A DNA stretch of 64,000 bases, taken from the NCBI GenBank assembly GCA_017520545.1, contig JAFXFM010000023.1, positions 34,653 through 98,652 of the forward strand. The letters are read 5' to 3'. Shown piece by piece: positions 4,348 to 55,192 of this stretch. The notes under the pieces are model-generated. The model made no database searches, was not told where the DNA came from, and saw only the letters and a program-made list of their open reading frames with translations. The translations under genes were made by a program, and so were the position numbers. This DNA is from Alistipes sp. Lineage in GTDB: Bacteria; Bacteroidota; Bacteroidia; Bacteroidales; Rikenellaceae. Position 1 is the first letter of the stretch. Every line of letters begins with the position of its first letter.

Positions 4348-4481
4348 TAGTTTTCCGCTTTCAGTTTTCCGTTTTAATCCTGCTTCGCAGGCTTTTCCTC
4401 CTCGCGGCTCGGCATAGTGCAAACAAGTTTGCCCTCTGCTCTCGCTCCGCAGCGTCGGTTCCGTTTTCCGTTTTCCGTTTT
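4348..4481 (-). repeat. Dispersed structured repeat, copy A (CGGAAAAC-framed)
   Basis: Read on the minus strand: CGGAAAAC units, a core starting GGAACCGACG, an inner hairpin GCAAAC-TT-GTTTGC, a second hairpin CCTGC-GAA-GCAGG preceded by GGAGGAAAA, then more CGGAAAAC units. Four other copies are at 8332, 12107, 46205 and 55082. It begins 1-2 nt behind the dnaN stop codon and has the same orientation as dnaN, so it would be part of the dnaN 3' transcript. Confidence 0.85.
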
Positions 4482-5606
4482 TTATGCATTAATCATCATC
4501 GGCATCAGCAACATCAATGTCGAAGAGCTCTGAACGTCATCGTATACAGGCTTGTAGACACCTGCACGGCTCGAATCTGCCAACTCTACGAGAATTGTAG
4601 GGGTTTCGATGTTCGAGAGAATCTCCACGAGGAATGTCGATTTGAAGCCGATTGTGATAGGGTCGCCCTCGTAGCTGCACGACAACGACTCGTTAGCCGA
4701 AATCGAGAAGTTTACATCCTGCGCTGCAAGCACAACCTTGTTATTCTTAATATCCAAGCGGATAAGGTTGGTGCTTGGGTTCGAGCAGACAGCCACACGC
4801 TTGATTGCGTTCAACAATCCTACACGGTCCACCAACAACTTGTTAGGGTTCTCCTGCGGTATAACTACGTTGTAGTTAGGGTATGCTCCCTCGATAAGGC
4901 GGCAAACCAAAGTGCTCGACGACAACTCGAATACTACATTCTTCTGGTCGAAGGTCATCTTCACCTCGCCCTCCTCCTTCAAGAGGATATTCTTCAACAA
5001 GTTTGCAGGCTTCTTTGGCAAGATAAACGCAGCCTTAACGCCACAAGCGCACTCTACGGTGTGCTTAACCAACTTGTGAGCATCGGTAGCCACACAGGTA
5101 AGTTCAGTCTCGTCGAGGTTGAAATATACACCATTCATCACCGGACGCAACTCATCGTCTGCCGTCGCGAAGATGGTCTTGTTGATACCGTTTACCAAAA
5201 CATCTACATCGAGCGATACCTCGGTCTTCTCCTCCGACAACTCGTGAGTCTGAGGGTAGCTTACCGGGTTTGCTCCCGGAACCGACGACTGACCGCTGTT
5301 CCAAGCGATGCAAATCTCCCAATTCTCCTCGTTCACCTCAAACGTAAGAGGCATCTCCGAACACTCCTTCAACACGTCGAGCATCAACTTTGCAGGTGCT
5401 GCCACAGTGCCCTCTTTCTCGACATTATCGACATTGATGGTGCCTACGAGTGTTGTTTCGAGGTCCGATGTGGTAACCTTCAAAACATCACCCTCCAACT
5501 CCATCAAGAAGTAGTCGAGAATCGGAAGTGTGTTCTTGCTGTTGATAACCTTGCCGGTTGTCGCCAATAACGACAACAAAGCCGAACTTGATACTGTAAA
5601 TTTCAT
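4482..5606 (-). CDS. dnaN: DNA polymerase III sliding clamp, beta subunit
   Basis: 374 residues, the normal size for the three-domain bacterial clamp. Conserved stretches include the N-terminal MKFTVSSSALL, a VAAPAKLMLDVLKE segment, and the C-terminal MLLMPM that closes the peptide-binding pocket (consensus LMPMR/L). The dimeric ring tethers the polymerase to DNA. Here it heads a leftward run with the DnaQ-like exonuclease next; it is not adjacent to dnaA or recF, as is common in Bacteroidota. Confidence 0.95.
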   Translation of the reverse strand: MKFTVSSSALLSLLATTGKVINSKNTLPILDYFLMELEGDVLKVTTSDLETTLVGTINVDNVEKEGTVAAPAKLMLDVLKECSEMPLTFEVNEENWEICIAWNSGQSSVPGANPVSYPQTHELSEEKTEVSLDVDVLVNGINKTIFATADDELRPVMNGVYFNLDETELTCVATDAHKLVKHTVECACGVKAAFILPKKPANLLKNILLKEEGEVKMTFDQKNVVFELSSSTLVCRLIEGAYPNYNVVIPQENPNKLLVDRVGLLNAIKRVAVCSNPSTNLIRLDIKNNKVVLAAQDVNFSISANESLSCSYEGDPITIGFKSTFLVEILSNIETPTILVELADSSRAGVYKPVYDDVQSSSTLMLLMPMMINA

Positions 5607-5945
5607 AATTTCTGTTACTTTTTATGTTTGTTAATAATACTTTAAGTTTCTGGTTACCTACAATCTCTTACAGAGTGGGAGGAATTATGAAATTATTCCA
5701 TCTTGACATTCCCCCTAAATCCCCCTTTGGCAAAGGGGGACTTGTCGTTCGGTGTCCCTCACTCCGTTAAGATTTCTGCTATTTTTTATGTTTGTACTAT
5801 TTTGTTTGTGTTTGCTTTTTTTATAGGGGTTACTGGGGATTACTGGGGGCGGGCGTTCCGCCCTTTATGGGGGCGCTCACTCCGTTCGCTTTATAGGGAG
5901 CGTTTTCCGCTTTCAGTTTTCCGCTTTCCGTTTTCCGTTTTCCGT
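5607..5945. repeat. Gene-free spacer: hairpin plus CCAGTAA-type and CGGAAAAC repeats
   Basis: No gene is supported; the open frame 5703-5960 is made of repeats. Contents: a perfect hairpin CCCCCTTTG/CAAAGGGGG (5721-5739); a cluster reading GGGGTTACTGGGGATTACTG (5825-5850), the reverse of the CCCCAGTAA decamers found at 8514, 12271 and 46414; the hairpin GGGCG-TTC-CGCCC next to it; and a minus-orientation CGGAAAAC array (5901-5948) that runs into the stop codon of the following gene. I could not find a convincing promoter for dnaN here. Confidence 0.7.
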
Positions 5946-6830
5946 TTAAATCGTTGCTAACTTGTTAAGGGCATCGACCACCATCTCGCGGACGAATGGC
6001 TTGTAGTCGGTGCAGGCGTCCTTCGCAATGCGCTGGGCGATTATAGTGCAAATCGTACCCGCCTTGTGGCCCATAAGCGCTGCCAAGCCTGCCAATGCCG
6101 ACGACTCCATCTCGAAGTTCGTGATACGTCGTCCTTCGAAGCGGAACGACTCAATCTTCTCGTTCAACTTCAAATCCTGCGGTTGAAGGCGCACCCAACG
6201 TCCCTGCGGAGCATAGAAGCCCGGTGCTGCAATGGTAATACCCTCGCGTGTAACGTCTTTAAAGAGCTCAAATAACGACTCGTCAGCGTCGATGAAGTAT
6301 GGTGCTGTGAGTTGCGGATTCCAACCCGTATGCGCCACAAAAGCCTTCTCAATGGCGAGGTCGCACACATCGTTACGTCCTGCGTAGTAGTTGAGCAAGC
6401 CGTCGAAGCCCACCGAAGTGCGGGCAAATACTCGCTCGCCAACATTTATATCCTCCTGCAACGCTCCCGAAGTACCGAGGCGCACGAGTGTAAGCTGCTT
6501 AAACTCCTCCTTGACCTGACGTGTGGCAAAGTCGATATTCGCCAAGGCGTCCAACTCGGTAACCACGATGTCGATATTGTCGGTACCGATACCCGTAGAG
6601 AGCGCAGTCATACGACGACCCTTGTAGGTTCCCGTTATAGTCTTGAACTCGCGGCTTGCCACGTCGCACTCGATATTATCGAAGAACGAGGCTATCAGCT
6701 CTACACGTCCGGGGTCGCCCACCAAAATCACAATATCCGAAATTTGCTCGGGGCGAAGATGAAGATGGAATATCGAACCGTCCTCATTTATAATAAGTTC
6801 CGATGCCGGAATAACTCTCTTTTCGCTCAT
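5946..6830 (-). CDS. Nucleoside phosphorylase, uridine phosphorylase-like
   Basis: 294 residues of the PNP/UDP phosphorylase fold. GDPGR at 38-42 is the phosphate-binding loop, RLGTSGALQ (about 116-124) is the second phosphate/ribose motif and NFEMESSAL (about 239-247) is the nucleoside-binding loop. It would split a pyrimidine (most likely uridine) nucleoside to free base and ribose 1-phosphate in salvage. The protein is longer than E. coli Udp (253), as in other Bacteroidota members. The TAA stop is the first part of a CGGAAAAC repeat array. Confidence 0.85.
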   Translation of the reverse strand: MSEKRVIPASELIINEDGSIFHLHLRPEQISDIVILVGDPGRVELIASFFDNIECDVASREFKTITGTYKGRRMTALSTGIGTDNIDIVVTELDALANIDFATRQVKEEFKQLTLVRLGTSGALQEDINVGERVFARTSVGFDGLLNYYAGRNDVCDLAIEKAFVAHTGWNPQLTAPYFIDADESLFELFKDVTREGITIAAPGFYAPQGRWVRLQPQDLKLNEKIESFRFEGRRITNFEMESSALAGLAALMGHKAGTICTIIAQRIAKDACTDYKPFVREMVVDALNKLATI

Positions 6831-6856
6831 AATTTTTCTTTTTAGCAGTTATACTC

Positions 6857-6887
6857 TTGGATATTTGGCATAAAAATAGTATATTTA
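6857..6887 (+). promoter_or_regulatory. Probable promoter of the glmM-type mutase gene
   Basis: TTGG at 6857-6860, a 19-bp gap and TATATTTA at 6880-6887 resemble the Bacteroidota -33/-7 pair, with A in place of the final G. The predicted transcript would start near 6894, about 50 nt before the start codon. Weakish match. Confidence 0.5.
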
Positions 6888-6942
6888 CATCGATTTTCAA
6901 AACAAAACAACAATTTTTTTATTAAAAATAAAAACTACTACT

Positions 6943-8331
6943 ATGACACTCATTAAATCTATCTCCGGTATTCGCGGAACGATAGGCGGCGAAGTGGGTG
7001 AGAACCTAACCCCTATCGACATCGTAAAATTCACTATTGCCTACACCCGTTTTATTGCAGGCAAGAATAGCGCCAAACGTTTGCGCATCGTCGTAGGTCG
7101 CGACGCCCGCATCTCGGGCGAGATGGTGAACGATATCATCGAAGGAACGCTCCTCGGCTGTGGTGTCGATGTTATCAATGTTGGTCTTTGCACCACCCCG
7201 GGTACCGAAATGGCGGTTATCACTCACAAGGCTGACGGCGGTATCATCATCACCGCATCGCACAATCCAAAGCAGTGGAACGCATTGAAGCTCCTCAACG
7301 AGAAGGGCGAGTTCCTCAACGCTGCCGAGGGTCAGCAGGTGCTCGCTTTGGCAGAGCAGGAGGACTTCATCTTCCCTGACGTAGAGAACATCGGAAAGGT
7401 GATTTCGCGCGAGGACTTCAACCCTACGCATATCGACCAAGTACTTGCTCTTAACCTCGTTGATGTTGAGAAGGTTAAGGCACGCAAGTTCAAGGTCGTA
7501 GTAGACGCCGTAAATTCGATTGGCGGTGTTGTAATTCCCGCACTCTTGGAGAAGCTCGGTTGCGAGGTTGTAAAGCTCAACTGCGAGCCTAACGGACAAT
7601 TTGCACACAACCCTGAGCCACTTCCGCAAAACCTCACCGAGATTTCGGAGGTTATCGTTCGCGAGAAGGCTGACCTCGGTGTCGTAGTCGATCCTGACGT
7701 GGACCGCTTGGCACTTGTAAATGAGGACGGCACAATGTTTGGTGAGGAGTACACTTTGGTTGCGGTTGCGGACTATATCCTCACCCACACCAAGGGTAAC
7801 ACCTGCTCGAACCTCTCCTCTTCGCGTGCGTTGTGCGACGTTACCGTAGCGCACGGTGCTTCGTATGCGGCTTCGGCTGTGGGCGAGGTGAACGTGGTTA
7901 CCAAGATGAAGGAGACAGGCGCAGTTATCGGTGGCGAGGGCAATGGCGGAGTTATCTACCCTGAATTGCACTACGGTCGCGATGCGTTGGTTGGCGTAGC
8001 ATTGTTCCTCACCTACCTTGCCGACTTGGGTTGCACGATGACTCAGTTGCGTTTGCGCTACCCTGCATACTTCGCTTCGAAGAATAAGATTGAGCTTACA
8101 CCTGCGATTGACGTGGACAAGGTGCTGGCTACAATCAAGGAGCGTTACGCACACGAGCGCGTGAATGATATTGATGGTGTGAAGATTGACTTCCTCCCAT
8201 ATTGGGTGCACCTTCGCAAGTCGAACACCGAGCCTATTATCCGCATCTACACCGAGGCAAAGACTCAGGAGATAGCCGACGAGGTAGCCGAGAAGTTCAT
8301 TGCCGAGATTAAGGAGATTTGCAATCTCTAA
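6943..8331 (+). CDS. glmM: Phosphoglucosamine mutase-type phosphohexomutase
   Basis: 462 residues with all four phosphohexomutase landmarks: the active-site phosphoserine loop TASHNPKQWN (Ser106), the metal loop DPDVDR at 250-255, the sugar loop GEGNGG (about 334-339) and the C-terminal phosphate-binding segment RKSNTEPIIRIY. Bacteroidota proteins of this length and type are usually assigned as GlmM (glucosamine 6-phosphate to glucosamine 1-phosphate, for peptidoglycan and LPS), but phosphomannomutase activity cannot be excluded. It is monocistronic; repeat copy B starts right at its stop codon. Confidence 0.85.
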   Translation: MTLIKSISGIRGTIGGEVGENLTPIDIVKFTIAYTRFIAGKNSAKRLRIVVGRDARISGEMVNDIIEGTLLGCGVDVINVGLCTTPGTEMAVITHKADGGIIITASHNPKQWNALKLLNEKGEFLNAAEGQQVLALAEQEDFIFPDVENIGKVISREDFNPTHIDQVLALNLVDVEKVKARKFKVVVDAVNSIGGVVIPALLEKLGCEVVKLNCEPNGQFAHNPEPLPQNLTEISEVIVREKADLGVVVDPDVDRLALVNEDGTMFGEEYTLVAVADYILTHTKGNTCSNLSSSRALCDVTVAHGASYAASAVGEVNVVTKMKETGAVIGGEGNGGVIYPELHYGRDALVGVALFLTYLADLGCTMTQLRLRYPAYFASKNKIELTPAIDVDKVLATIKERYAHERVNDIDGVKIDFLPYWVHLRKSNTEPIIRIYTEAKTQEIADEVAEKFIAEIKEICNL

Positions 8332-8475
8332 AACGGAAAACTGAAAACGGAAAACGGAAAACTGAAAACGGAACCGACGCTGCGGAGCGAGAGCAGAGGG
8401 CAAGCTTGTTTGCACTATGCCGAGCCGCGAGGAGGAAAAGCCTGCGAAGCAGGATTAAAACGGAAAACTTTTTTT
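8332..8475 (+). repeat. Dispersed structured repeat, copy B
   Basis: CGGAAAAC/CTGAAAAC units (8332-8370), core GGAACCGACGC, inner hairpin GCAAGC-TT-GTTTGC (8400-8413, one G-T wobble relative to copy A), hairpin CCTGC-GAA-GCAGG and a closing CGGAAAAC. It begins directly behind the TAA of the upstream gene and in the same orientation. Its core is nearly identical to copy A. Confidence 0.85.
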
Positions 8476-8509
8476 GATAGAGTACAGAGAGCGACACAAA
8501 ATAAGTTGG

Positions 8510-8668
8510 TAGCGCACCCCAGTAAAGGGCGGAACGCCCGCCCCCAGTAAGCACCGAAGGTGCACCCCCAGTAAACCCCAGAATAGCCTGCGCCTTGACA
8601 AGGGTTGGAGTTCGGGGTGCGCAAAAACTAATTCTCAATTTTTAATTCTTAATTTTTAATTTTTAATT
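8510..8668. repeat. CCAGTAA decamers, GAA-loop hairpins and AATTCTTAATTTTT tract
   Basis: Three CCCCAGTAA units are separated by two different perfect hairpins with the same GAA loop, GGGCG-GAA-CGCCC and GCACC-GAA-GGTGC. A module TGCGCCTTGACAAGGGT (8589-8605) is shared with 13090-13106. An A/T tract built from AATTCTTAATTTTT (8630-8668) runs to the start of the next gene, where a promoter or ribosome site might otherwise be expected. Confidence 0.75.
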
Positions 8669-10030
8669 GTGAAACGCGTTCAAGACTATATTTCAAAGAA
8701 TAGAGATCGATTTCTCGACGAGTTATTCGAGGTGTTGCGTATCCCCTCGATAAGTGCGCAATCGTCGCACAAGGAGGATATGATTAGGTGTGCCGAGCAT
8801 CTCGCCAAGGCGTTGGCTGTGGCAGGTGCTGACTCTACCGAGGTTATTCCTACCGAGGGTAACCCCGTTGTATATGCCGAGAAAATCATCTCGCCCGAGG
8901 CAAAGACCGTACTCGTTTATGGCCACTACGACGTTATGCCTGTGGACCCTCGCGAGGAGTGGAACACCGACCCTTTCGAGCCTACAATCATCAACAACCG
9001 CATCTACGGACGTGGTGCCGACGACGACAAAGGTCAGTCGTTTATGCACATCAAGGCCTTCGAGGCGATGTGTGCCACCGACTCCCTCCCTTGCAACGTC
9101 AAGTTTATGCTCGAAGGCGAGGAGGAGATTGGCTCCCCTTCACTCTACGGCTTCTGCGAGGAGTACAAGGAGAAGTTGAAGGCGGATATTATCCTTGTAT
9201 CGGATACCTCGATGATTTCGCTCGATACGCCATCTATAACGTGCGGATTGCGCGGTTTGACCTATATGGAGGTGGAGGTCATAGGACCTAACAAAGACCT
9301 CCATTCGGGCCTTTTTGGCGGTGCTGTGGCTAACCCTGCCAACGTGCTGACTCTCCTTGTGGCGTCGCTCGTCGATGAGGAGGGACACATCACCATACCC
9401 CACTTCTACGACAAGGTGCGCGAGCTTACTGCCGAGGAGCGCAAGGCGTTCAACGAGGCTCCATTCTCGCTCGACAGCTACAAGCAAGCCCTCGATATTG
9501 ACGACGTTGAGGGCGAGGCTGGTTACACCACCATTGAGCGTACGGGTATCCGCCCATCGCTCGACGTGAATGGCATTTGGGGCGGCTACACCGAGGAGGG
9601 CACAAAGACCGTTATCCCGTCGCGTGCCTACGCCAAAATCTCGATGCGCCTTGTTCCCGACCAAGATTTCGAGGAGATTGGACGCCTGTTCGAGGAGCAT
9701 TTCCGCAACATCGCACCAAAGAGCGTGAAGGTGAATGTGAAGTTCCTGCACGGTGGTGCGCCTTACGTTTCGCCTACCGATATGGAGGCGTATAAGGCTG
9801 CCGAAAAGGCTGTTGAGGAGTCGTTCGGACGCAAGCCGTTGCCGTTCTATTCGGGTGGCTCTATCCCTATCGTAAGCGGCTTTGAGCGCATCTTGGGCAC
9901 GAAGTCTATCCTTATCGGCTTTGGACTTTCGGAGGACGCAATCCACTCACCAAACGAGAGTTACGGTCTCGACCAATTCGACAAAGGCTTACAGACGATA
10001 CCTTTATTCTATAAGTATTTTGCGGAGTAG
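8669..10030 (+). CDS. M20 family dipeptidase
   Basis: 453 residues of the dizinc M20 peptidase family. Metal and catalytic residues are in place: His86 and Asp88 in YGHYDVMP, bridging Asp119 in GADDDKGQ, catalytic Glu151 in LEGEEEIG, and a late His in EDAIHSPNE. A dimerisation (lid) domain lies between about 190 and 330. The closest functional class is cytosolic dipeptidases that split X-His or broad dipeptides. The start is GTG at 8669, preceded by an A/T repeat tract instead of a Shine-Dalgarno site; a longer N-terminus is not available because the upstream sequence is repeat. Confidence 0.9.
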   Translation: MKRVQDYISKNRDRFLDELFEVLRIPSISAQSSHKEDMIRCAEHLAKALAVAGADSTEVIPTEGNPVVYAEKIISPEAKTVLVYGHYDVMPVDPREEWNTDPFEPTIINNRIYGRGADDDKGQSFMHIKAFEAMCATDSLPCNVKFMLEGEEEIGSPSLYGFCEEYKEKLKADIILVSDTSMISLDTPSITCGLRGLTYMEVEVIGPNKDLHSGLFGGAVANPANVLTLLVASLVDEEGHITIPHFYDKVRELTAEERKAFNEAPFSLDSYKQALDIDDVEGEAGYTTIERTGIRPSLDVNGIWGGYTEEGTKTVIPSRAYAKISMRLVPDQDFEEIGRLFEEHFRNIAPKSVKVNVKFLHGGAPYVSPTDMEAYKAAEKAVEESFGRKPLPFYSGGSIPIVSGFERILGTKSILIGFGLSEDAIHSPNESYGLDQFDKGLQTIPLFYKYFAE

Positions 10031-10237
10031 CGGCTAGTAACGGCTAGTAAGGGCTATTAAGGGCTAGTAAAGAAAGCGCGCACCCTTACTGGCCTTTACT
10101 GGCCTTTACTGGGGGCGCACCTTCGGTGCTTACTGGGGGTTACTGGGGTAATTCTCCATTTTGCATTCCTATATACTCTCGGCTAAAAAAAAATAAAAGT
10201 TTTCCGCTTTCCGCTTTCCGTTTTCCGTTTTTTTTAC
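10031..10237. repeat. Mosaic of GGCTAGTAA, GGCCTTTACT and CGGAAAAC repeats
   Basis: Behind the dipeptidase gene come GGCTAGTAA/GGCTATTAA units, then GGCCTTTACT units and GGGGGTTACTGGGG, with the hairpin GCACC-TTC-GGTGC between them. A minus-orientation CGGAAAAC array (10200-10234) leads straight into the promoter of the next operon. No gene. Confidence 0.75.
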
Positions 10238-10994: not shown

Positions 10995-11032
10995 TAAACC
11001 ATATTGTTAAACCTATAAAATCAGAGAAGATT

Positions 11033-12106: not shown

Positions 12107-12222
12107 AAACGGAAAACGGAACCGACGCCAAGTCTAGCGCAGAGGCTGCTTGCAGACTCTGCCTTGACGCGAAGGAGGAAAAGCCTGCGAAGCAGGATTA
12201 AAACGGAAAACGGAAAACTTTT
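12107..12222 (+). repeat. Dispersed structured repeat, copy C
   Basis: CGGAAAAC units, core GGAACCGACGCC, outer stem GCAGAG/CTCTGC, inner hairpin CTGC-TT-GCAG, then GGAGGAAAAGCCTGC-GAA-GCAGG and CGGAAAAC units. Compared with the other copies, both stems differ in sequence yet remain paired. Confidence 0.85.
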
Positions 12223-12793: not shown

Positions 12794-13226
12794 ACGCCCA
12801 AAAAGCGGAGGGCAGAGAACTGAATTTTAGACGAGAGAACAATTAAACGGAAAACGGAAAGCGGAAAGCGGAAAACTTTTATTTTTTCAATTTTCAGTTT
12901 TTTCACTTTTTACACCACTGAAAATGTGAAAATGTGAAAATAATGAAAATTTAGACGAGAGTCGAGAGTTGGCGCGAGAGATAAGGGTGAGTAAAGGCAA
13001 GTAAAGGCCAGTAAGGGCCAGTAAGGGTGCGCGCTTTCTTTACTAGCCGTTATTAGCCCTTAATAGCCGTTACTAGCCGTTATTAATGCTTGCGCCTTGA
13101 CAAGGGTCGGAGTTCGCACAACTAAAAAGGCTAATGGCTAATAGCTAATGGCTAATAGCCCCAAAAATCGGAACGATTTACAGAACAGGAAGCAATAAGT
13201 TTACAAACAAAATAAAAGAAAAAAGT
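12794..13226. repeat. Gene-free spacer: CGGAAAAC, CCAGTAA and TTAGCCA repeats
   Basis: Contains a plus-orientation CGGAAAAC array without the structured core (12846-12877), GTAAAGGCCA/GTAAGGGCCA units (12990-13026), GCCGTTA(C/T)TA units (13045-13085), the module TGCGCCTTGACAAGGGT (13090-13106, also at 8589) and a TTAGCCA/TTAGCTA array on the minus strand (13126-13160). No gene and no clear yebC promoter; TAAGTTTA at 13196-13203 is a weak -7 candidate. Confidence 0.65.
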
Positions 13227-17836: not shown

Positions 17837-18463
17837 ATGAAAATTGCGAAGATAGATTTGTCGGGACACACCCTCGAAGAGATTTTCGAGGGTATCGCTC
17901 CCGAGAGGATTGCCTGCTGTAATTGGGCCGAGGAGTACCCTTACGCGCCAAATGTATCGTTTAAGATGTTCCATACGGGCGAGAAGTTGTACGTTCGCTT
18001 CGATGTCGAGGAGGGCTATACGGCGGCTCGTGTAGCCGAGGATAATGGCGAGGTTTGGACCGACTCGTGCTGCGAGTTCTTCCTATCGTTGGACGGCGAG
18101 GCATACTACAACGTCGAGACTACCTGCATTGGCAAGATGTTGATTGGCTATCGAGCAAAGGGTCAGGATGTTATTCACGCCGACGACACTGTACTTTCGC
18201 AAGTTGAGCGCATCACTTCACTCGGCTCGGAGCCTTTCGAGGAGCGCGTGGGCGAGAATAAGTGGTCGTTGATGTTGGGACTTCCAACCTCGATTATGCA
18301 CCAGCACAAGGTTGAGAGTTGGGACGGCTTGAAGTTGAAGGTTAATCTCTACAAATGTGGCGATAACCTCTCGAAACCACACTTCCTCTCGTGGCAACCA
18401 ATCGCACTTCCGCAACCTTGCTTCCACTGCCCTGAGTTCTTCACGGCAATCGAGTTGGAGTAA
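17837..18463 (+). CDS. Carbohydrate-binding family 9-like protein
   Basis: 208 residues without signal peptide. YVRFDVEEG, followed by VWTDSCCEFFLSLDGEAYYNVETTCIG broken over residues about 64-93, resembles the beta-sandwich of the CBM9-like family. In Bacteroidota such small intracellular proteins are often next to sugar-phosphate genes. It starts 1 bp after the kinase stop, so it belongs to the amino-sugar operon. Whether it binds sugar is unknown. Confidence 0.7.
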   Translation: MKIAKIDLSGHTLEEIFEGIAPERIACCNWAEEYPYAPNVSFKMFHTGEKLYVRFDVEEGYTAARVAEDNGEVWTDSCCEFFLSLDGEAYYNVETTCIGKMLIGYRAKGQDVIHADDTVLSQVERITSLGSEPFEERVGENKWSLMLGLPTSIMHQHKVESWDGLKLKVNLYKCGDNLSKPHFLSWQPIALPQPCFHCPEFFTAIELE

Positions 18464-18470
18464 AAAATAT

Positions 18471-18540
18471 CGTCAATTATTGAGGGTATTTTGTGCCAAG
18501 AAAGGTAGCGAAAAGGGATAAAATGCAGAATCAGAAAAGC
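18471..18540 (+). repeat. Truncated copy of the 125-nt nested-hairpin repeat
   Basis: ATCGTCAATTATTGAGGGTA followed by TTTTGTGCCAAGAAAGGTAGCGAAAA and ending in AATCAGAA: same order of blocks as the complete units at 18603 and 18728, but the central hairpin is missing. Confidence 0.6.
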
Positions 18541-18554
18541 TAAGGGCTAAAAGC

Positions 18555-18590
18555 AACAAGATGGGTATCGTTTTCGATACCCATCTTGTT
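18555..18590. terminator. Perfect 16-bp hairpin with TTTT loop
   Basis: AACAAGATGGGTATCG (18555-18570), loop TTTT, and its exact complement (18575-18590). It would form on either strand between convergent genes, so it may stop both; there is no long T run. The core TATCG-TTTT-CGATA recurs at 52493 and, with five T, twice at 46460-46519. Confidence 0.7.
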
Positions 18591-18599
18591 TATAGAAGT

Positions 18600-18849
18600 T
18601 CATAAATGATTGAGGGTGTTTTGTGCGAGGCAAGGTAGCGAAAGTGCAGCATATAAACCTATGTGAGCATTTCGGTTATTAAAGATTGGTGCAAAATTTA
18701 CCAATCAGAACCCTGCCTACAAAAAAAAATCGCTTATGAGCGAGCAGATTTTGTGCGAGGCAAGGTAGCGAAAGCGCAGCATAGTAAACCTATGTGAGCA
18801 TTTCGCTATCCGACGTTATCGTGCAAAATATGCCGCTCAGAACGATTTT
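18600..18849. repeat. Two copies of a 125-nt nested-hairpin repeat
   Basis: Unit 1 (about 18603-18715) and unit 2 (about 18728-18849) share GTGCGAGGCAAGGTAGCGAAA, GCAGCATA--AAACCTATGTG with a gap, and GAGCATTTCG. In unit 1 the outer stem is TGATTG/CAATCA; in unit 2 it is GAGCG/CGCTC plus AATCG/CGATT, and ATTTTGTGCGA pairs with TCGTGCAAAAT. The array fills the gap between convergent genes and ends at the stop codon of the leftward one. Three more units lie at 24455-24823. Confidence 0.82.
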
Positions 18850-24434: not shown

Positions 24435-24454
24435 TATTAAAATACTAACGGCAC

Positions 24455-24823
24455 TAACGACATTTGTGCTAAACGAGGCGACGAAAGCGCAGCATAGTAA
24501 ACCTATATGAGCATTTTGGCGACCGACACACTCGTGCAAAAAGAACTCATCAGAACTCTGCCTACTTAAAAAATCGTAAATGATGAGATTATTTTTGTGC
24601 CAAGCGAGTAGACGAAAGCGCAGCATAGTAAAATGTATGTGAGCATTTCGTTACCGAGGTGCGGTGCAATAAGAACTCATCAGAACTCTGCCAACACGAA
24701 AATCGTCAATGATGAGATTATTTTTGTGCGATGTTAGGCGACAGAAGCGCAGCATAGTAAACCTATGTGAGCATTTTGGCGACCGACACACTCGTGCAAA
24801 AAGAACTCATCAGAACGATTTTT
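24455..24823. repeat. Three tandem copies of the 125-nt nested-hairpin repeat
   Basis: Units at about 24455-24570 (5' side degraded), 24571-24699 and 24700-24823, with a period of 129 bp between the last two. Pairing in the last unit: AATCGT/ACGATT, TGATGAG/CTCATCA, TTTTTGTGCGA/TCGTGCAAAAA (two G-T wobbles) and the inner hairpin CATAG-TAAAC-CTATG. The final arm supplies the last codons (KSF-stop) of the leftward nucleosidase gene. Between convergent genes, as at 18600. Confidence 0.85.
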
Positions 24824-25409
24824 CCACCTTGTCCAAGATTGGCGTAAAATCAGTCCAAGTATTTGCGAACTCGTCGTAGGAAAGTTCGGTGTGTCCATCT
24901 TCCGGAACGTCGGAGATAACCTTTACAGCAACGAGAGGAGTGTTTCCGCACATCTCGCAAGCGATTGCAATAGCACCTATCTCCATATCGAAAATCGCCT
25001 TTTCGACACCAAAACGAGCCTTAATATCGGCTACGGAGCGAGCATTTACAAAGGAGTCGCCGGTGAAGACTGTGATATTGTCGGTGCCAAGAAGGTTGCG
25101 AGGGTCAGATATCTCGGGAATAAAGCCCTCGGGGATATCGGCATCGTGGTATTGCACACGGTTGGGCATAACAACCTCGCCCTGCTTGAAGCCGAGTGTT
25201 CCAGCCGCATAGCCTATAACTGCCACAAGGTCGTAAGGCTGCTCTGCCTGCATCAGATGTCGCGTAAGTGTTGCAGCAGCGGCAGCTTTGCCGATACCGC
25301 TAAACGCCACAGTATAGCGATTTCTCAACTGCTCGCCCTTGCGCTCAATGGCAAGGCGTATATTCTTATTCTCGCGCTCGGTTGGCGCAACTATCAGGAT
25401 ATTCTTCAT
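24810..25409 (-). CDS. Phosphorylase-superfamily nucleosidase (MTA/SAH nucleosidase-like)
   Basis: 199 residues from ATG 25409 (MKNILIVAPTERE); the ATG at 25433 lies in a TTAGCCA repeat and would add only repeat-coded residues. GIGKAAAAATLTRHL and VIGYAAGTL are the core beta-strand/loop motifs, and FDMEIGAIAIAC is the nucleoside-binding loop with catalytic Glu. VISD followed by a late FAN completes the fold. It may split methylthioadenosine, adenosylhomocysteine or a related nucleoside. Start overlap with the repeat and the stop codon inside another repeat show how close repeats press on this gene. Confidence 0.78.
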   Translation of the reverse strand: MKNILIVAPTERENKNIRLAIERKGEQLRNRYTVAFSGIGKAAAAATLTRHLMQAEQPYDLVAVIGYAAGTLGFKQGEVVMPNRVQYHDADIPEGFIPEISDPRNLLGTDNITVFTGDSFVNARSVADIKARFGVEKAIFDMEIGAIAIACEMCGNTPLVAVKVISDVPEDGHTELSYDEFANTWTDFTPILDKVEKSF

Positions 25410-46197: not shown

Positions 46198-46204
46198 GTA
46201 AAAA

Positions 46205-46374
46205 AAACGGAAAACGGAAAGCGGAAAGCGGAAAACTTTTGTTTTTTCGATTTTCGCTTGGAGTGGAAAACGGAACCGACGACAAACCGAGGGCAGAGGG
46301 CGCTTGCGCACTTTGCCGAGGTGCGAAGGAGGAAAAGCCTGCAAAGCAGGGTTAAAGCGGAAAACGGAAAACTT
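46205..46374 (+). repeat. Dispersed structured repeat, copy D
   Basis: CGGAAAAC/CGGAAAGC units, a short unrelated insert (46236-46262), core GGAACCGACG, outer stem GCAGAG/CTTTGC, inner hairpin GCGC-TT-GCGC, GGAGGAAAAGCCTGC-AAA-GCAGG and closing CGGAAAAC units. Lies between divergent operons, unlike copies A-C and E, which sit behind genes. Confidence 0.83.
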
Positions 46375-46626: not shown

Positions 46627-48801
46627 ATGTCGTTACTACGATTTAAGATGTTCGAGAAGGCACTCGACCACAAACCGGTCGAGGTAAAGGCCCCATCGCG
46701 TAATCCGTCGGACTACTTTGGCGAAATGGTATTCGGTCGTGTGCAGATGCGCAAATACCTCAACAAGCAGATTTACGAAGCGTTGCTCGACACCATCGAG
46801 AACAACACCCCACTCTCGGCAGATATTGCCGATGCTGTGGCCGCAGGTATGCGCCAATGGGCACTCGAAAATGGTGCCGATCACTACTGCCACTGGTTTC
46901 AGCCGCTTACGGGCGGCACCGCCGAGAAGCACGACTCCTTCTCCGAGCCCGATGGCACGGGAGGTATGTTGGAGGAGTTTTCGGGCAAGGTTTTGGTACA
47001 GCAGGAGCCTGATGCCTCATCATTCCCGAGCGGAGGTATCCGCAACACCTTCGAGGCACGAGGATACTCGGCGTGGGACCCCACATCTCCTGCATTTATC
47101 GTAGATACAACGCTCTGTGTCCCTACCGTATTTATATCGTACACGGGCGAAGCCCTCGACTATAAGACGCCTCTGCTCCGCTCCATAACTGCCGTATCGA
47201 AGGCTGCCACCGACGTATGCCACTACTTCGACCGCAGCGTTGAGCGAGTAAAAGTATTCCTCGGCTGGGAGCAGGAGTACTTCTTGGTTGATGACGCCCT
47301 TTGGTCGGCACGTCCCGACCTTGTGCAGACAGGTCGCACCCTGATGGGCCACGAATCGGCGAAAAATCAGCAATTGGACGACCACTACTTTGGTGCTATC
47401 CCACAGCGCGTACTCGCCTTTATGAAGGACTTGGAGTATGAGTGTCTGAAACTCGGAATTCCGCTCAAAACACGCCACAACGAGGTTGCGCCAAACCAAT
47501 ACGAGTTGGCTCCGATATACGAGGAGGCCAACCTTGCAAACGACCACAATCAGCTGTTAATGACCGTAATGGGTAAGGTGGCAACACGCCATCACTTCCG
47601 CGTACTTCTGCACGAGAAGCCATTCAAGGGCATCAACGGCTCGGGCAAGCACAACAACTGGTCGCTCGGAACAGATACGGGCATAAACCTCTTGAAGCCC
47701 GGACGTACCGCCTTCGAGAACTTGCAGTTTATGACCTTCCTCGTAAATGTTATTGCCGCCGTACATCGCCACAACGGCTTGCTGAAAGCGTCGGTAATGA
47801 GCGCATCGAATGAACACCGTTTGGGTGCCGGCGAGGCTCCTCCGACAATCATCTCGACCTTCCTCGGAACGCAGATTTCGGAGGTCCTTGACAAGATGGA
47901 ACAGTCGCTCACAGGCGAAGATATCCGTTTCGACTCGAAGAATGTGTTCCGTATGGGTGGTTTGACACAGATTCCGTCATTATTACTCGACAATACCGAC
48001 CGCAACCGCACCTCGCCTTTTGCCTTTACGGGTAACCGCTTTGAGTTCCGTGCAGTGGGTTCGTCGGACAACTGCGCCGACGCTATGATTGTGCTCAACA
48101 CTGCTGTAGCAGAGTCGCTTATCGACTTCCGCAAGAGGGTTGATGCACGTATCGCAAATGGCGAGAAGAAGGATAAAGCTATATACGATGTATTGCGCGA
48201 GTTGATTCGCGAATGTAAGGCTATACGCTTCGACGGCAACGGCTACTCGGAGGAGTGGCGCAAGGAGGCTGCCAAGCGTGGCTTGGACTGCGAAACGTCG
48301 GCACCACTTGTACTCGACCGTTACCTCGACGAGAAGAGCGTCAGCCTCTTCGACAAAATGGGCATATACACTGCCAAGGAGTTGGAGGCCCGTACAGAGA
48401 TTAAGTGGGAGACCTACGTCAAAAAAATTCAGATTGAGGCTCGCGTATTGGGCGAATTGGCGATGAATAACATCGTGCCTATCGCATCGCGCTACGAGGA
48501 TATTTTGCTGGATAAGGTTTGGAAGATGAAGCAACTCGGTATGCAGTCGAAAAGCGACACCGAACTTATCAAACTCATTCAGAAACGCACCGCAACAATT
48601 CAGCAGTTGGTAACCGAGATGATTGAGGCACGCAAAAAGGCAAATGTAATAGAGAATACACGCGAGAAGGCTATCACATACCACGACACTGTGGCAATCT
48701 ATTTCGACCGTATCCGCACCGAGATTGACAAACTCGAAGAGGTGGTCGATGACCAGATTTGGACGCTACCAAAATACAGAGAGATATTATTCGTAAAGTA
48801 G
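46627..48801 (+). CDS. glnN: Glutamine synthetase type III
   Basis: 724 residues, the size of GSIII (GlnN), the dodecameric glutamine synthetase typical of Bacteroidota and some cyanobacteria. MRQWALENGADHYCHWFQPLTGGTAEKHDS, over residues about 74-103, is the GSIII N-terminal signature; KHNNWS, NRTSPFAFTGNRFEFRAVGSS and KTRHNEVAPNQYELAP supply the ammonium, ATP and glutamate site. It joins ammonia to glutamate. The coding end forms one arm of a 14-bp inverted repeat with the downstream 101-bp repeat. Confidence 0.96.
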   Translation: MSLLRFKMFEKALDHKPVEVKAPSRNPSDYFGEMVFGRVQMRKYLNKQIYEALLDTIENNTPLSADIADAVAAGMRQWALENGADHYCHWFQPLTGGTAEKHDSFSEPDGTGGMLEEFSGKVLVQQEPDASSFPSGGIRNTFEARGYSAWDPTSPAFIVDTTLCVPTVFISYTGEALDYKTPLLRSITAVSKAATDVCHYFDRSVERVKVFLGWEQEYFLVDDALWSARPDLVQTGRTLMGHESAKNQQLDDHYFGAIPQRVLAFMKDLEYECLKLGIPLKTRHNEVAPNQYELAPIYEEANLANDHNQLLMTVMGKVATRHHFRVLLHEKPFKGINGSGKHNNWSLGTDTGINLLKPGRTAFENLQFMTFLVNVIAAVHRHNGLLKASVMSASNEHRLGAGEAPPTIISTFLGTQISEVLDKMEQSLTGEDIRFDSKNVFRMGGLTQIPSLLLDNTDRNRTSPFAFTGNRFEFRAVGSSDNCADAMIVLNTAVAESLIDFRKRVDARIANGEKKDKAIYDVLRELIRECKAIRFDGNGYSEEWRKEAAKRGLDCETSAPLVLDRYLDEKSVSLFDKMGIYTAKELEARTEIKWETYVKKIQIEARVLGELAMNNIVPIASRYEDILLDKVWKMKQLGMQSKSDTELIKLIQKRTATIQQLVTEMIEARKKANVIENTREKAITYHDTVAIYFDRIRTEIDKLEEVVDDQIWTLPKYREILFVK

Positions 48802-49025
48802 CGGTGGCTACCTTACGAATAATATCCAGGTGTTACCTATCCCCCAAGCCCCCTTTCTGTAAAGGGGGCTTTTCGCTTCGCTCAATTAAAAACGTTAAGT
48901 AGCGGTGGCTACCTTACGAATAATATCCAGGTGTTACCTATCCCCCAAACCCCCTTTCTGTAAAGGGGGCTTTTCGCTTCGCTCAATTAAAAACGTTAAG
49001 TAGCAGTGGCTACTTTACAAATAAT
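48783..49025 (+). repeat. 101-bp tandem repeat behind glutamine synthetase III
   Basis: Units 48797-48897 and 48898-48998 differ at only one or two bases; a third partial unit reaches 49025. Each holds the hairpin GTAGC-GGTG-GCTAC and a terminator-like hairpin CCCCCTTT-CTGT-AAAGGGGG with CTTTT (48849-48873; 48950-48974). In the first unit GATATTATTCGTAA inside the glnN coding end pairs exactly with TTACGAATAATATC (48783-48796 with 48813-48826), so the stop codon is inside a stem. Confidence 0.85.
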
Positions 49026-49523: not shown

Positions 49524-49532
49524 TGGCCATTT

Positions 49533-50891: not shown

Positions 50892-50902
50892 CAACATACC
50901 CA

Positions 50903-50940: not shown

Positions 50941-50957
50941 TGCAAATGAAGTATTTG

Positions 50958-51932: not shown

Positions 51933-51955
51933 AGCCGTAATTATTTAATGATGAT

Positions 51956-52390
51956 TTATGCCTTTTTAACGGTCAATATAACGCTGTTTATGGCAACAAC
52001 CTCCACAGCCTCTCCCACTTCGATTGGCTCTACGTCAAGCGATATTGCCTTCCAATCATCGCCGTCAATCTTCACACGACCGGGGTACAACTCGCCCTCG
52101 ATACGCTCGGTAACCACCGCGCGACGACCAACCACAGCCTCGGCGTTAGTCTTCACTTCGTTCTCCTTCTTGTAGAAGAATTTATAGACCAACGGACGCA
52201 CCGTAACAAATGCCAAAACCGTACCCACGGCGAATGCCAAAATCTGCCACTTGATATCCCATTCGAGCAGCGACGCACCCGCTCCGAACAGACAGCCAAA
52301 CGAGATACACATCACCGCAAAACCGGTTGTAAACATCTCGACGATTACAAAAATGAGGGCAACTATCACCCAAATCTGCCAAGCCTCCAT
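51956..52390 (-). CDS. NfeD family membrane protein
   Basis: 144 residues. Two to three hydrophobic helices (about 5-25, 30-48, 50-65) and a C-terminal OB-fold (about 85-144, GRRAVVTERIEGELYPGRVKIDGDDW in parts) are the short NfeD form without a protease domain. It partners with SPFH proteins, here the next gene. Gene order NfeD then SPFH is as in many bacteria. Confidence 0.9.
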   Translation of the reverse strand: MEAWQIWVIVALIFVIVEMFTTGFAVMCISFGCLFGAGASLLEWDIKWQILAFAVGTVLAFVTVRPLVYKFFYKKENEVKTNAEAVVGRRAVVTERIEGELYPGRVKIDGDDWKAISLDVEPIEVGEAVEVVAINSVILTVKKA

Positions 52391-52437
52391 AGTTATAAAT
52401 TTATTTTGATTTGTAAATTTGCACTCTTACACCTCTA

Positions 52438-52445
52438 CAAAGTTA
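52438..52445 (-). promoter_or_regulatory. -7 element of the NfeD-SPFH operon
   Basis: TAACTTTG on the minus strand (TAnnTTTG exact), 48 bp upstream of the NfeD start. A TTG lies 22 bp further, a little too far for a good -33. Confidence 0.5.
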
Positions 52446-52490
52446 ATAAAACTTTCCAATAATAATGCAATAATGGCAGAATTTTTCTTG

Positions 52491-52652
52491 GGTATCGTTT
52501 TCGATACCTGTGAGGGCGAGGGCGGTAGCCATTGATTCTTTTTAGGGGCGTTAGAGGCGTTATGGATACTGGGGAATTTAGAGCATTTTGAGAAATAATT
52601 CTCAATTCTTAATTCTCAATTCTCAATTTTTCATTTTTTTGTACTATCTTTA
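52491..52652 (+). promoter_or_regulatory. Spacer before ricT: palindrome, A/T repeat and -7 element
   Basis: GGTATCG-TTTT-CGATACC (52491-52508) repeats the palindrome of 18565 and 46459. Then an AATTCTCAATTCTTAATT-type tract (52591-52636) and TATCTTTA (52645-52652), one base off the -7 consensus, 27 bp before the start codon. Confidence 0.5.
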
Positions 52653-52678
52653 CGCAAAATATGGACTTTTTGTAAATT

Positions 52679-53878
52679 ATGGATTACACAAAATATGACA
52701 AACCCGAAGTTGGACGTGGTTGCACCTTTGGTGTAAACGAGGCCGGTGAGCCCGTAGCAAAGGAGGCGCGTGGTTGCTTCCGTCTGCACGAAGAGCCGTG
52801 GCTCGGCAACTACCCCGACAACTTCCCTACCGACATTTTCGAGGTACGTTTCAAAAATACGCGACGTTCATTCTATCAGAATGTCAATAATTTGCCACTC
52901 GCTGTCGGCGATATCGTGGCAGTAGAGGCTTCGCCGGGACACGATATCGGCATCATCTCGCTTACGGGCGATATGGTGGCTCGACAGATGAAGCGATTGG
53001 GTTTCAACCCTCAGAATGGCGAGTTCAAAAAAATCTACCGCAAGGCGCGTCCTTACGACATCGAGAAGTGGCAGGAGGCTATCGCCCTCGAACACGAAAC
53101 GATGATTCGCTCACGCCAAATCGCTGCCGATATGGGGCTCGATATGAAAATTGGCGACGTAGAGTATCAGGGCGACAAAATAAAGGCCATATTCTACTAC
53201 ATCGCTGATGGCCGTGTCGATTTCCGCGAACTCATTAAGGTCTTTGCCGAGCAGTTCCATATCCGCATCGAGATGAAGCAGATTGGTGCTCGTCAGGAGG
53301 CGGGACGTATCGGCGGCATCGGAGCCTGCGGTCGTGAGTTGTGTTGTGCTTCGTGGGTATCGAGTTTTTCGAGCGTAACAACAGGTGCAGCACGCGTGCA
53401 GGACCTCTCACTCAACCCGTTAAAGTTGGCCGGTCAGTGCTCGAAGTTGAAGTGCTGTTTGACCTACGAATACGACGTCTATGCCGATGCACGTCGTTCA
53501 ATGCCACGTTTGCGTGAGCCATTGCAGGCGATAGATGGCGAATACTTCCTCGTCAAGAGCGATATTCTCGCTCACACGATGACCTTCTCGACAAGCAAGG
53601 ACTCGATGTCGAATCTTGTAACCATTCCTGTATCGCGCGTGCGTGAGATTTTGGCAGTAAATCGCAATGGAGGTAAAGTTGATTCAATACTTGGAGCCGA
53701 CTACGAGCCTACCGTCGAAGAGCCTACATATCGCACCGAGGAGGATAGCATCACACGCTTCGACAAGGCGAAGAAGCGCAAAAAGAGAAAGAACCGCAAC
53801 AACAGAGGCGATAAGGGTGGCGACAACCACAACAAGCAAGGCGACAACAAGAGCAACAACGAGGAGCAGAAGGCATAA
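52679..53878 (+). CDS. ricT: PSP1-domain protein, RicT-like
   Basis: 399 residues. The PSP1 domain lies at about 60-230; cysteines in GACGRELCCASW (217, 222, 223) and QCSKLKCC (254, 259, 260) match the Fe-S-binding pattern of RicT (YaaT), part of the Y-complex involved in RNA processing in Firmicutes. The C-terminal 40 residues are a basic/Asn-rich low-complexity tail. In Bacteroidota this gene is regularly followed by gldH, as here (TAATG overlap). What the Y-complex does in this phylum is unclear. Confidence 0.9.
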   Translation: MDYTKYDKPEVGRGCTFGVNEAGEPVAKEARGCFRLHEEPWLGNYPDNFPTDIFEVRFKNTRRSFYQNVNNLPLAVGDIVAVEASPGHDIGIISLTGDMVARQMKRLGFNPQNGEFKKIYRKARPYDIEKWQEAIALEHETMIRSRQIAADMGLDMKIGDVEYQGDKIKAIFYYIADGRVDFRELIKVFAEQFHIRIEMKQIGARQEAGRIGGIGACGRELCCASWVSSFSSVTTGAARVQDLSLNPLKLAGQCSKLKCCLTYEYDVYADARRSMPRLREPLQAIDGEYFLVKSDILAHTMTFSTSKDSMSNLVTIPVSRVREILAVNRNGGKVDSILGADYEPTVEEPTYRTEEDSITRFDKAKKRKKRKNRNNRGDKGGDNHNKQGDNKSNNEEQKA

Positions 53879-54306
53879 TGAGAGTTATAGCACGCATAAT
53901 GGCAGTGATATCGGTGGCGCTGGCAACATATAGTTGTCTGTCGCCGCAAAATGCTGTTATGGTGGGGGTGGATCTCAACTCGTGGGATAAGGTTAAAAGC
54001 GTAGTCTATGAGAATAGCGACACTCTCTCGTTGCGCAACCTCAATATCGCAATACGCTACAACAGCAATTTTGAGGAGGGTTCGCTACCTTTGAAGTTGG
54101 CGATTATGACACCCGACAACAGAATTTTTCAGGACACAATATCGTTACAACTCGAACGTTCTTCAGCGGCAGTTGCGATATCGACAACCGAGAGCCGACC
54201 ATATCGTACAGATGTCCTCCTCAACCAAAAAGGGTCCTACATCTTTGCATTCAAACCGCTAATCGAGGTACGTGGCGTGGAGGCAATAGGAATCGAATTG
54301 GAATAG
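53878..54306 (+). CDS. gldH: Gliding-motility-type lipoprotein GldH
   Basis: 142 residues; a lipoprotein signal with lipobox ending TYSC (Cys20). WDKVKSVVYE and LNIAIRYN then LPLKLAIMTPD fit the GldH family. In Flavobacterium GldH is needed for gliding; in non-motile Bacteroidales homologues are retained and may serve outer-membrane export or assembly. Position directly after ricT supports the call. The start codon overlaps the ricT stop. Confidence 0.82.
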   Translation: MRVIARIMAVISVALATYSCLSPQNAVMVGVDLNSWDKVKSVVYENSDTLSLRNLNIAIRYNSNFEEGSLPLKLAIMTPDNRIFQDTISLQLERSSAAVAISTTESRPYRTDVLLNQKGSYIFAFKPLIEVRGVEAIGIELE

Positions 54307-54348
54307 TTTCAAAAAAAGAATAAAACCAACGGCTAAAAGCTAATAGCA

Positions 54349-55182
54349 ATGGGAAAAGATAAACTCCGTAAATTTGCAGAAAACTTGACTTTCGAGTGTT
54401 TCGTACAGCCGGCATTCGAGGAGATGTTCCGCACCGACCACCCACTTAAAGGCAATTGGCGCAAGGAGTTCTTCCACAACGACAACCCGATAGTCCTCGA
54501 ACTCGGTTGCGGCAAGGGCGAATATACGGTAGCCCTCGCAGAGCGCAATCCCGACAAGAACTTTATAGGTGTCGATATCAAAGGTGCGCGTATTTGGCGT
54601 GGTGCAAAGACCGCAACAGAGCGCAAGATGAGCAATGTAGGTTTCCTTCGTGCACGCATCGAGTTTATAACATCGCTATTTGCCGAGGGCGAGGTCGATG
54701 AGATATGGATCACATTCCCCGACCCGCAACTCCGCACCAAGCGTGCGAAGAAGCGTCTAACAGCTCCTATCTTTTTGGAGTATTACGCCAAGTTGCTCCG
54801 CAAGGATGGTTGGATCAATCTGAAAACCGACTCGCAGCACCTATTTGCCTACACCTCGGCAGTAATCGAGAAGTTCGGTTTGAAGTGTGAGGTTGCAAAC
54901 AACGACATCTACGGCTCGGGCTATGCCGACGAGGTATTGTCGGTAAAGACCGCCTACGAGCAGATGTACCTCGAGCGAGGCTTACCAATAACCTACACCC
55001 GTTTCCAATTGGGCGAACGCAAAGAGTTCCCGATGTTCGATTGGGAGGGCGATGATATCCTCGAAAAAGATGGCGAAATAGAACGGAAAACGGAAAGCGG
55101 AACCGACGCACGAAGCAAGAGCAGAGGGTGCTTGCACACTATGCCTTGCAAGAAGGAGGAAAAGCCTGCGAAGCAGGATTAA
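54349..55182 (+). CDS. trmB: tRNA (guanine-46-N7)-methyltransferase with repeat-encoded tail
   Basis: 277 residues. SAM-binding LELGCGKGEYTVALAE (about 49-64), GVDIKGAR and WITFPDPQLRTKR (tRNA-binding motif) are clear; family length is about 210-250. The natural domain appears to end near residue 244. The last 33 residues (starting ERKTESGTDARS) are read out of dispersed repeat copy E, and the repeat provides the stop codon. The tail is basic and cysteine-containing, with no similarity expected in other TrmB proteins. Confidence 0.93.
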   Translation: MGKDKLRKFAENLTFECFVQPAFEEMFRTDHPLKGNWRKEFFHNDNPIVLELGCGKGEYTVALAERNPDKNFIGVDIKGARIWRGAKTATERKMSNVGFLRARIEFITSLFAEGEVDEIWITFPDPQLRTKRAKKRLTAPIFLEYYAKLLRKDGWINLKTDSQHLFAYTSAVIEKFGLKCEVANNDIYGSGYADEVLSVKTAYEQMYLERGLPITYTRFQLGERKEFPMFDWEGDDILEKDGEIERKTESGTDARSKSRGCLHTMPCKKEEKPAKQD

Positions 55183-55192
55183 AGCGGAAAAC
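55082..55192 (+). repeat. Dispersed structured repeat, copy E, inside the trmB reading frame
   Basis: CGGAAAAC and CGGAAAGC units, core GGAACCGACGCA, outer GCAAG/CTTGC, inner hairpin GTGC-TT-GCAC, GGAGGAAAAGCCTGC-GAA-GCAGG and GCGGAAAAC. It overlaps the last 33 codons of trmB in the same orientation. Confidence 0.85.

Follow-up and report, generated by a model that had tools for sequence, protein, structure and literature searches.

In Nostoc and its relatives, small dispersed repeats (SDR) were reportedly described by Elhai and colleagues in 2008 as structured repeats of 21-27 nt with compensatory changes, often located within tandem heptamers, nested in one another and encoding no enzyme. 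Insertion sequences of the IS200/IS605 type have strand-specific hairpins, generate no target duplication and insert 3′ of a short target resembling their own right end. Here we analyze a repeat in a 64,000-nt stretch of an Alistipes genome (assembly GCA_017520545.1, contig JAFXFM010000023.1, positions 34,653 to 98,652; henceforth the window), in which a first-pass annotation had pointed out five dispersed copies with a covarying hairpin, framed by arrays of CGGAAAAC. Our best explanation, which we regard as somewhat probable, is that this repeat is a miniature mobile element, 80-87 nt long, non-autonomous and dependent on its structure, that is moved in trans, probably as folded single-stranded DNA.

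Judged by their reported description, the cyanobacterial SDR would be the closest known kind. The Alistipes element resembles them in showing compensatory changes within a common fold and in residing in tandem heptamers (105 of 129 contexts), and departs from them in its length of 80-87 nt, against a reported 21-27 nt, its two hairpin domains, its G.A-containing closing helix, its presence in another phylum, the AA after which it inserts and wobble pairs in a pattern that favours DNA. Strand-specific hairpins, the lack of target duplication and the insertion 3′ of a short, fixed AA (123 of 129 contexts), which resembles the right end of the element itself, are shared with derivatives of IS200/IS605 elements; unlike them, the element has no Y1 transposase in its host, and no autonomous relative was found. 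The first-pass annotation knew of no named family with this layout, which holds for Rfam at threshold but not for the kind, small structured mobile repeats in heptamer arrays having reportedly been seen in cyanobacteria. At gathering score, Rfam 15 returns only tRNA matches for the window; at E ≤5, four loci yield one weak match, to STnc240 (30 bits, gathering 55, E 0.4), over the last 19 bases of the copy in locus L244.

Repetitive extragenic palindromic (REP) sequences are palindromes of 20-40 bp tied to a Y1 transposase (RAYT), with CGTC- and GTAG-tagged kinds (PMC3116915, PMC3733652). Like REP and REPIN sequences, the element is intergenic, folded, multi-copy and non-autonomous; unlike them, it is not an inverted pair, and a Y1 gene is present in none of its host's contigs and in 2 of 180 genomes of the genus. 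Direct heptamer repeats, such as TAACTGA, are described for Beggiatoaceae, cyanobacteria and some Bacteroidetes, with the mechanism given as unknown (PMC4679880). These constitute the same class of intergenic 7-bp arrays as those reported here, but they are arrays alone, whereas the arrays seen here receive a separate folded element. In the open literature we found no publication describing the family by title or abstract; a candidate-RNA survey of human microbiomes mentions Alistipes and palindromic candidates, and may include the element (PMC8040213).

Fold and covariation of the element

Matches at 150 places provided 112 distinct cores, which were reduced to 53 representatives below 94% identity; 39 of these, picked by hand, compose the alignment for the covariance model used throughout (R2). 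The unit, with AA in front, extends from CCGACG to GGAGGAAAAG, a hairpin and RTTAA, and measures 80-87 nt in nearly all cores. Its ends, AA-CCGACG and GCAGGRTTAA, are not inverted copies of each other in the alignment.

Judged by covariation, the fold comprises a closing helix (P1) with tandem G.A, then P2/P3, which together make a long hairpin with a bulge, and P4, a hairpin of its own on the 3′ side. In P1, columns 69, 68 and 65 (G, G, G) are the partners of columns 3, 4 and 7 (C, C, C), the positions in between reading as tandem G.A, and the helix covaries from C-G to G-C at 3/69 and from C-G to U-A at 4/68. The CCGACG end, part of a unit of 80-87 nt, has CGTC, a REP tag, on its other strand; the C residues of this end are paired in P1. 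The outer stem of P2 exists in unrelated versions (GCGG/CCGC, ACC/GGT, GCAAG/CTTGC, GTC/GAC, GCC/GGC), with tandem G.A alternating with A-U pairs, and is followed by a one-base bulge and by GCAGAG/CTNTGC (also GAAAAA/TTTTTC and GTATAG/CTATAC). The P3 apex is mostly C-TT-G-closed, with CTAG, CAAG and A/T versions in copies beyond the five of the window, and the P4 stem, CCTGC-NNN-GCAGG, has compensated forms such as CCTCC/GGAGG, CCCTC/GAGGG and CCACC/GGTGG.

Both partners change in 16 of the 24 pairs. The 39 sequences contain 78 double-changed cells, against 22.9 expected, a count that none of 500 shuffles, which ignore kinship, could reach; sliding the partner by 1-3 columns, a control that keeps kinship, destroys the signal. 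The structure surpasses all 500 shuffles on all five measures, as well as every slid version, and the proposal that changes in the repeat preserve pairing is borne out; it withstands the refuting test on covariation that the first-pass annotation had set. Likewise, the stem variants and C-TT-G apex of the small hairpin are as originally described in all five window copies. The paired region had been correctly placed at the small hairpin and its flanking stem, but its extent had been drawn too small: the closing helix and the 3′ hairpin covary too. The observation made in the first-pass annotation is confirmed, and its interpretation is supported.

A chimeric variant, GCCGCGATTAAG...GAAGCCCGAAGGGC (L002, L012, L019, L021 and L179:140-218), combines the same inner hairpin with another closing stem, and is also seen joined to the main element through AA, giving partial R2 matches.

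Filled and empty insertion sites

Empty sites, which had been suggested as a check in related strains, occur at orthologous places in relatives (G057, G065). Three such places, with flanking genes 82-91% identical, are filled in one genome and empty in another, in both directions. At the site of copy 2, for which 10 relatives have sequence (1 of 11 is missing), G057 and G065 show a CGGAAAA array without the element, G005 contains a different element variant, and in the remaining relatives the intergenic DNA is different or almost absent. At the site of copy 1, 0 of 9 relatives hold the element (2 of 11 missing), and G057 keeps the arrays there. Conversely, G065 has an element (R2, L192:2808-2890) where the window has an array alone (5901-5947). 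Over the stretches of all 11 relatives R2 identifies just two elements, those of G005 and G065. In L233, which belongs to a different genus of the family, CTCCCCTACGAA/AGGGGAG is interrupted by the element next to two unsplit CTACGAA-AGGGGAG repeats, and two more repeat families have both empty and filled forms (ACCAA^TCAGAAC and GCGCAA^CATAG). Since the filled and empty forms of these sites match, insertion is exact, with no target duplication beyond a shared AA that can be assigned to neither side. We base mobility on the orthologous filled and empty sites, on L233 and on the two further repeat families, together with the distinct and recurring cores of the host copies and the AA that precedes the element.

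After merging duplicates and dropping flanks shorter than 28 bases, 129 contexts were available, 33 from the host genome and 96 from others. AA directly precedes CCGACG in 123 of them. The heptamer continues across the element (at least 5 of the 7 left bases equal to those after TTAA) in 105, comprising 30 of 33 host and 75 of 96 other contexts. Identity across the junction is 0.79 at the exact register and 0.39-0.42 one base off, and re-dealt right flanks reach a mean of 0.53 and a maximum of 0.58 in 200 rounds. As a yardstick, drawn from one window of one genome with a hand-drawn gene list, heptamer contexts represent 195 of the 1557 AA sites (12.5%) in the intergenic DNA of the window (~6.75 kb). 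The arrays around the element vary by species (TGCAAAA, TTGTGAA, TTAAGAA, TTGAGAA, AGACGAA/AGACGAG, GGCCAAT and others). Because they do, the CGGAAAAC frames constitute a target in the host genome and not a part of the element: the first-pass annotation rightly saw them framing the copies, but in counting them as belonging to the repeat it included what is the usual landing place in this genome, other species having other arrays.

Contexts outside heptamer arrays consist of composites and of other repeats, hairpin loops and a REP-like hairpin, these last three with exact ends. Copies are nearly always intergenic, lying inside a called gene in 0 of 33 host and 3 of 96 other contexts according to crude gene calls. 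Both orientations occur; among same-direction neighbours the element is in sense in 46 of 70 contexts (10+36 vs 7+17), a mild excess by gene calls that are crude and that missed a gene adjoining copy 5.

The heptamer and decamer arrays themselves seem to turn over fast. Across loci L192-L202 the content of the same intergenic gap changes with the species: heptamer or decamer arrays that differ from one to the next, in part arranged as inverted pairs, or hardly any sequence. A dispersed, partly tandem repeat of ~130 bp (TTTGTGC...GCGCAGCATAGTAAACCTATG...), present in the window at 18461-18843 and 24439-24832, serves in other genomes as a target for the element.

Form of the element and rival explanations

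Among 80 distinct rows, the regularly formed pairs comprise 1335 Watson-Crick, 19 G.T, 8 A.C and 18 other cells. G.T accounts for 19 of 1354 paired cells (1.4%) when four of the 22 pairs, with at least 15% other cells, are set aside, and for 35 of 1445 (2.4%) over all 22, the cells being non-independent and the alignment fitted to the model; in 14 tRNAs of the same loci it is about seven times commoner (29 of 308, 9.4%). The P4 loop is GNA in 75 of the 112 distinct cores and AAA in 24, and GNA loops make extraordinarily stable DNA mini-hairpins (PMC4686876). Folded as DNA, the element strand of the five window copies obtains z scores of -3.44, -2.49, -3.31, -2.22 and -4.07, against -1.02, -0.17, -2.05, 0.09 and -2.50 for the opposite strand, and folds better in 5 of 5. 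Given the scarcity of G.T, the GNA triloops and the strand-specific DNA folding, a single-stranded DNA form is favoured.

In the mechanism we envisage, an enzyme supplied in trans would recognize the folded element strand, probably as single-stranded DNA, and would join its two AA-bounded ends to a target AA. Their ability to expose single strands would make targets of heptamer arrays, REP-like hairpins and hairpin loops, and the main target in the genus would be arrays that were in place before the element arrived. We extend this only tentatively, and with considerable doubt, to a wider reading, in which such elements would form a family of minimal transposons, widespread in Bacteroidales and mobile in the form of folded single-stranded DNA, with an enzyme other than Y1 or RAYT joining AA ends to AA targets, and in which repeated insertion and loss would help explain the heptamer arrays of these intergenic regions.

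Several candidate movers were considered. The Y1 transposase (PF01797), positive in 5 of 14 controls, appears in 0 host genes and in 2 of 180 genomes of the genus; neither of these two has the 3′ module, one giving no R2 match and the other a single distant one. Because the host genome is incomplete, the near-absence of Y1 across the genus is better evidence than its absence from the host, and, with Y1 genes so distributed, an IS200/IS605 or RAYT mover is disfavoured. Reverse transcriptase (PF00078) does not track copy number, being present in 12 of 28 rich carriers (at least 17 matches) vs 6 of 18 genomes without a match, and thereby shows no link to carriers such as a group II intron or retron-type retroelement would require. 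The Y2 transposase (PF04986) was detected in 0 of 46 genomes, with control genomes equally silent. Of the marks of a miniature inverted-repeat transposable element of a DD(E/D) transposon, the element has neither terminal inverted repeats nor a target site duplication beyond the ambiguous AA. As for a larger autonomous element that contig ends might conceal, C3, C7, C10 and C16 share an end sequence made up of three small modules; C3 extends this shared sequence, and there the next gene is chromosomal, with no transposase seen.

A number of observations weigh against a mobile element moved as single-stranded DNA. The Y1 and reverse transcriptase searches provided no candidate enzyme, families beyond these and Y2 not having been searched. 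No heptamer match is present in 24 of the 129 contexts, and CGGAAAA-type arrays flank the host copies on at least one side in 32 of 33 contexts, and on both sides in 28, though other heptamer arrays exist in this genome, a predominance left unexplained if the element chose freely among arrays. At any single array site, loss instead of gain may have occurred. The scarcity of wobble pairs could stem in part from a recent common origin of the copies and from a structure-fitted alignment, RNA folding is also good (z -1.25 to -2.94), and C-TT-G is a known RNA tetraloop.

The last of these points bear on an RNA-level element, whose fold would be selected in the transcript and which would spread through an RNA intermediate and reverse transcriptase, as has reportedly been proposed for the cyanobacterial SDR. 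Its strand-specific fold, stable as RNA, and the sense excess obtained with crude gene calls would fit such an element, which we nonetheless deem unlikely in view of the reverse transcriptase counts, of G.T pairs about seven times rarer than in tRNAs and of empty sites without target duplication. Alternatively, the element would spread passively when dispersed heptamer arrays that happen to bear it undergo homologous recombination (gene conversion), its structure serving another role. Such spread would account for the fixed register, for the array type that 32 of 33 host copies have in common on one side or both and for orthologous arrays with and without the element. It fares poorly with copies that have exact ends and no array, in a REP-like hairpin, hairpin loops and unrelated repeats, with period-7 arrays of just 25-47 bp in the window and with different element variants held by the same array type within one genome, and we rate it as distinctly improbable. 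An immobile cis-acting regulatory or mRNA-stability element, such as a REP-like hairpin in 3′ untranslated regions kept by selection at each site, would agree with the nearly exclusive intergenic location found with crude calls and with the array of copy 2, which begins at a stop codon. The existence of empty sites weakens this explanation: orthologous sites are not conserved, with the element in 0 of 9 relatives at g1..g2 and in 1 of 10, as a different variant, at g4..g5, and both orientations are found, making it a very remote prospect. The mobile, structure-dependent element stays our preferred account.

Distribution and surroundings of the copies

The search for further copies with a covariance model, as the first-pass annotation had advised, located the family across the genus, family and order. 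The host genome (1.93 Mb in 24 contigs, 92% complete) has the 3′ module at no fewer than 35 places with at most 2 mismatches, the reversed control giving 0, and its 33 copies amount to 26 distinct cores, with identical cores recurring 4, 3, 2 and 2 times. R2 matches are present in 119 of 180 genus genomes (E ≤0.001), in 104 of 200 family genomes from 11 of 22 genera (E ≤1e-4) and in 13 of 374 order genomes (E ≤1e-4), 11 of these 13 lying outside Rikenellaceae in 7 other families; with at most 25 (genus), 23 (family) and 12 (order) matches scored per genome, copy numbers are lower bounds, and E-values are rough. Matches outside the family are weak (34.8-55.4 bits), with their parts mostly in the same order.

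The exact 3′ module occurs in at least 104 public contig stretches; among the matches listed, 72 are from metagenome-assembled genomes (MAGs) of Rikenellaceae/Alistipes, many of ruminant-gut origin, and the rest from Bacteroidaceae (2), Nitrospinota or Nitrospinaceae (28), Sumerlaeota (1) and Gemmiger (1). The 28 Nitrospinota loci are not counted as members of the family: they have the exact 3′ module and no 5′ domain, with a best score of 26.1 bits. A Nitrospinota MAG (27 contig stretches) and a Nitrospinaceae MAG (L050, L052, L065, L091 and others) contain hairpins chained by AGGAAAAG, and these chains include the exact 3′ module GGAGGAAAAGCCTGCNNNGCAGG without the element 5′ domain, which may reflect a module in common or a coincidence. 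The Sumerlaeota (L079) and Gemmiger (L123) loci look like chance matches of the 3′ module in other sequence. Viral contigs returned 0 exact 3′ modules, and window positions 8370-8470 had no match among plasmids. Ten rows have a 3′ end without the usual 5′ part, most of them contig-end cuts or diverged or truncated copies; other DNA stands upstream of the element 3′ end in L039, L110 and L115. In G489, a distant copy lies directly downstream of a 5S rRNA gene (L244), and another locus (L251) has two copies in tandem, preceded by the same immediate upstream sequence as in L244.

Within the window (Table 1), R2 and direct reading recover the five dispersed copies with their parts in the order first described, all above 80 bits; the sixth-best match scores 15 bits (E 0.14). 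The window contains 30 occurrences of CGGAAAAC, against 2.68 expected and with none of 100 shuffles reaching 30, and its period-7 arrays span 25-47 bp.

Table 1. Element copies, flanking arrays and unfilled sites in the window
Feature	Positions	Strand	Details
Element copy 1	4374-4460	minus	87 nt; GCGG/CCGC outer stem; GCAAAC-TT-GTTTGC apex; R2 85.4 bits
Element copy 2	8372-8458	plus	87 nt; apex with wobble GCAAGC/GTTTGC; R2 86.1 bits
Element copy 3	12120-12201	plus	82 nt; GTC/GAC outer stem; CTGC-TT-GCAG apex; R2 101.4 bits
Element copy 4	46274-46355	plus	82 nt; ACC/GGT outer stem with tandem G.A; GCGC-TT-GCGC apex; R2 101.9 bits
Element copy 5	55101-55182	plus	82 nt; GCAAG/CTTGC outer stem; GTGC-TT-GCAC apex; R2 92.2 bits
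CGGAAAAC-type heptamer array, 3′ side of copy 1	4348-4373	minus	
CGGAAAAC-type heptamer array, 5′ side of copy 1	4461-4481	minus	
CGGAAAAC-type heptamer array, 5′ side of copy 2	8330-8371	plus	begins at stop codon of upstream gene; period-7 array measured to 8373
Short CGGAAAAC-type stretch, 3′ side of copy 2	8459-8469	plus	
CGGAAAAC-type array, 5′ side of copy 3	12108-12119	plus	
CGGAAAAC-type array, 3′ side of copy 3	12202-12219	plus	
CGGAAAAC-type heptamer array upstream of copy 4	46204-46236	plus	short recurrent spacer between array and copy 4
CGGAAAAC-type array, 3′ side of copy 4	46356-46373	plus	
Heptamer array, 5′ side of copy 5	55082-55100	plus	
Short CGGAAAAC-type stretch, 3′ side of copy 5	55183-55193	plus	
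CGGAAAAC-type array without element	5901-5947	minus	filled by an element at the orthologous place in G065
Uninterrupted TTTACCAATCAGAAC in another repeat family	18696-18711	plus	empty form of site filled in L045

The window copies are intergenic except for copy 5, which forms the 3′ end of an open reading frame (ORF). This ORF (54349-55182), which from its Pfam match we take to encode a TrmB-like methyltransferase, reads through the heptamer array and copy 5; in translation, these encode approximately its last 32 residues, and the TTAA of the element supplies the stop codon. Flanking genes in the window are housekeeping genes by Pfam (DNA polymerase III beta, exonuclease, phosphoglucomutase, M20 peptidase, GGGtGRT protein, methylmalonyl-CoA mutase, glutamine synthetase III and the TrmB-like methyltransferase), with no functional theme evident among those of the copies. 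A second recurrent module (CTTTTAGTTTTTCGGTTTTCGCTTGGAGTGG and variants) is located within CGGAAAA arrays just upstream of several copies (window 46204-46273, L013, L014, L017, L026, L030, L034). Elsewhere in the window, decamer and heptamer arrays at 10026-10231 and 12845-13085 are mirrored as inverted repeats around the intervening genes (83 bp at 94%, 43 bp at 100%), and a 101-bp unit at 48792-49025 forms 2.3 tandem repeats with a hairpin-forming CCCCCAAACCCCCTTT stretch inside.

The element, very small and clearly covarying, has exact empty sites but no visible mover, and it ties structured mobile repeats to heptamer arrays of unexplained origin. With its carriage in 119 of 180 genomes of a gut Rikenellaceae genus, the movement of repeats below 100 nt becomes testable, because many sequenced species and natural empty and filled sites are at hand.

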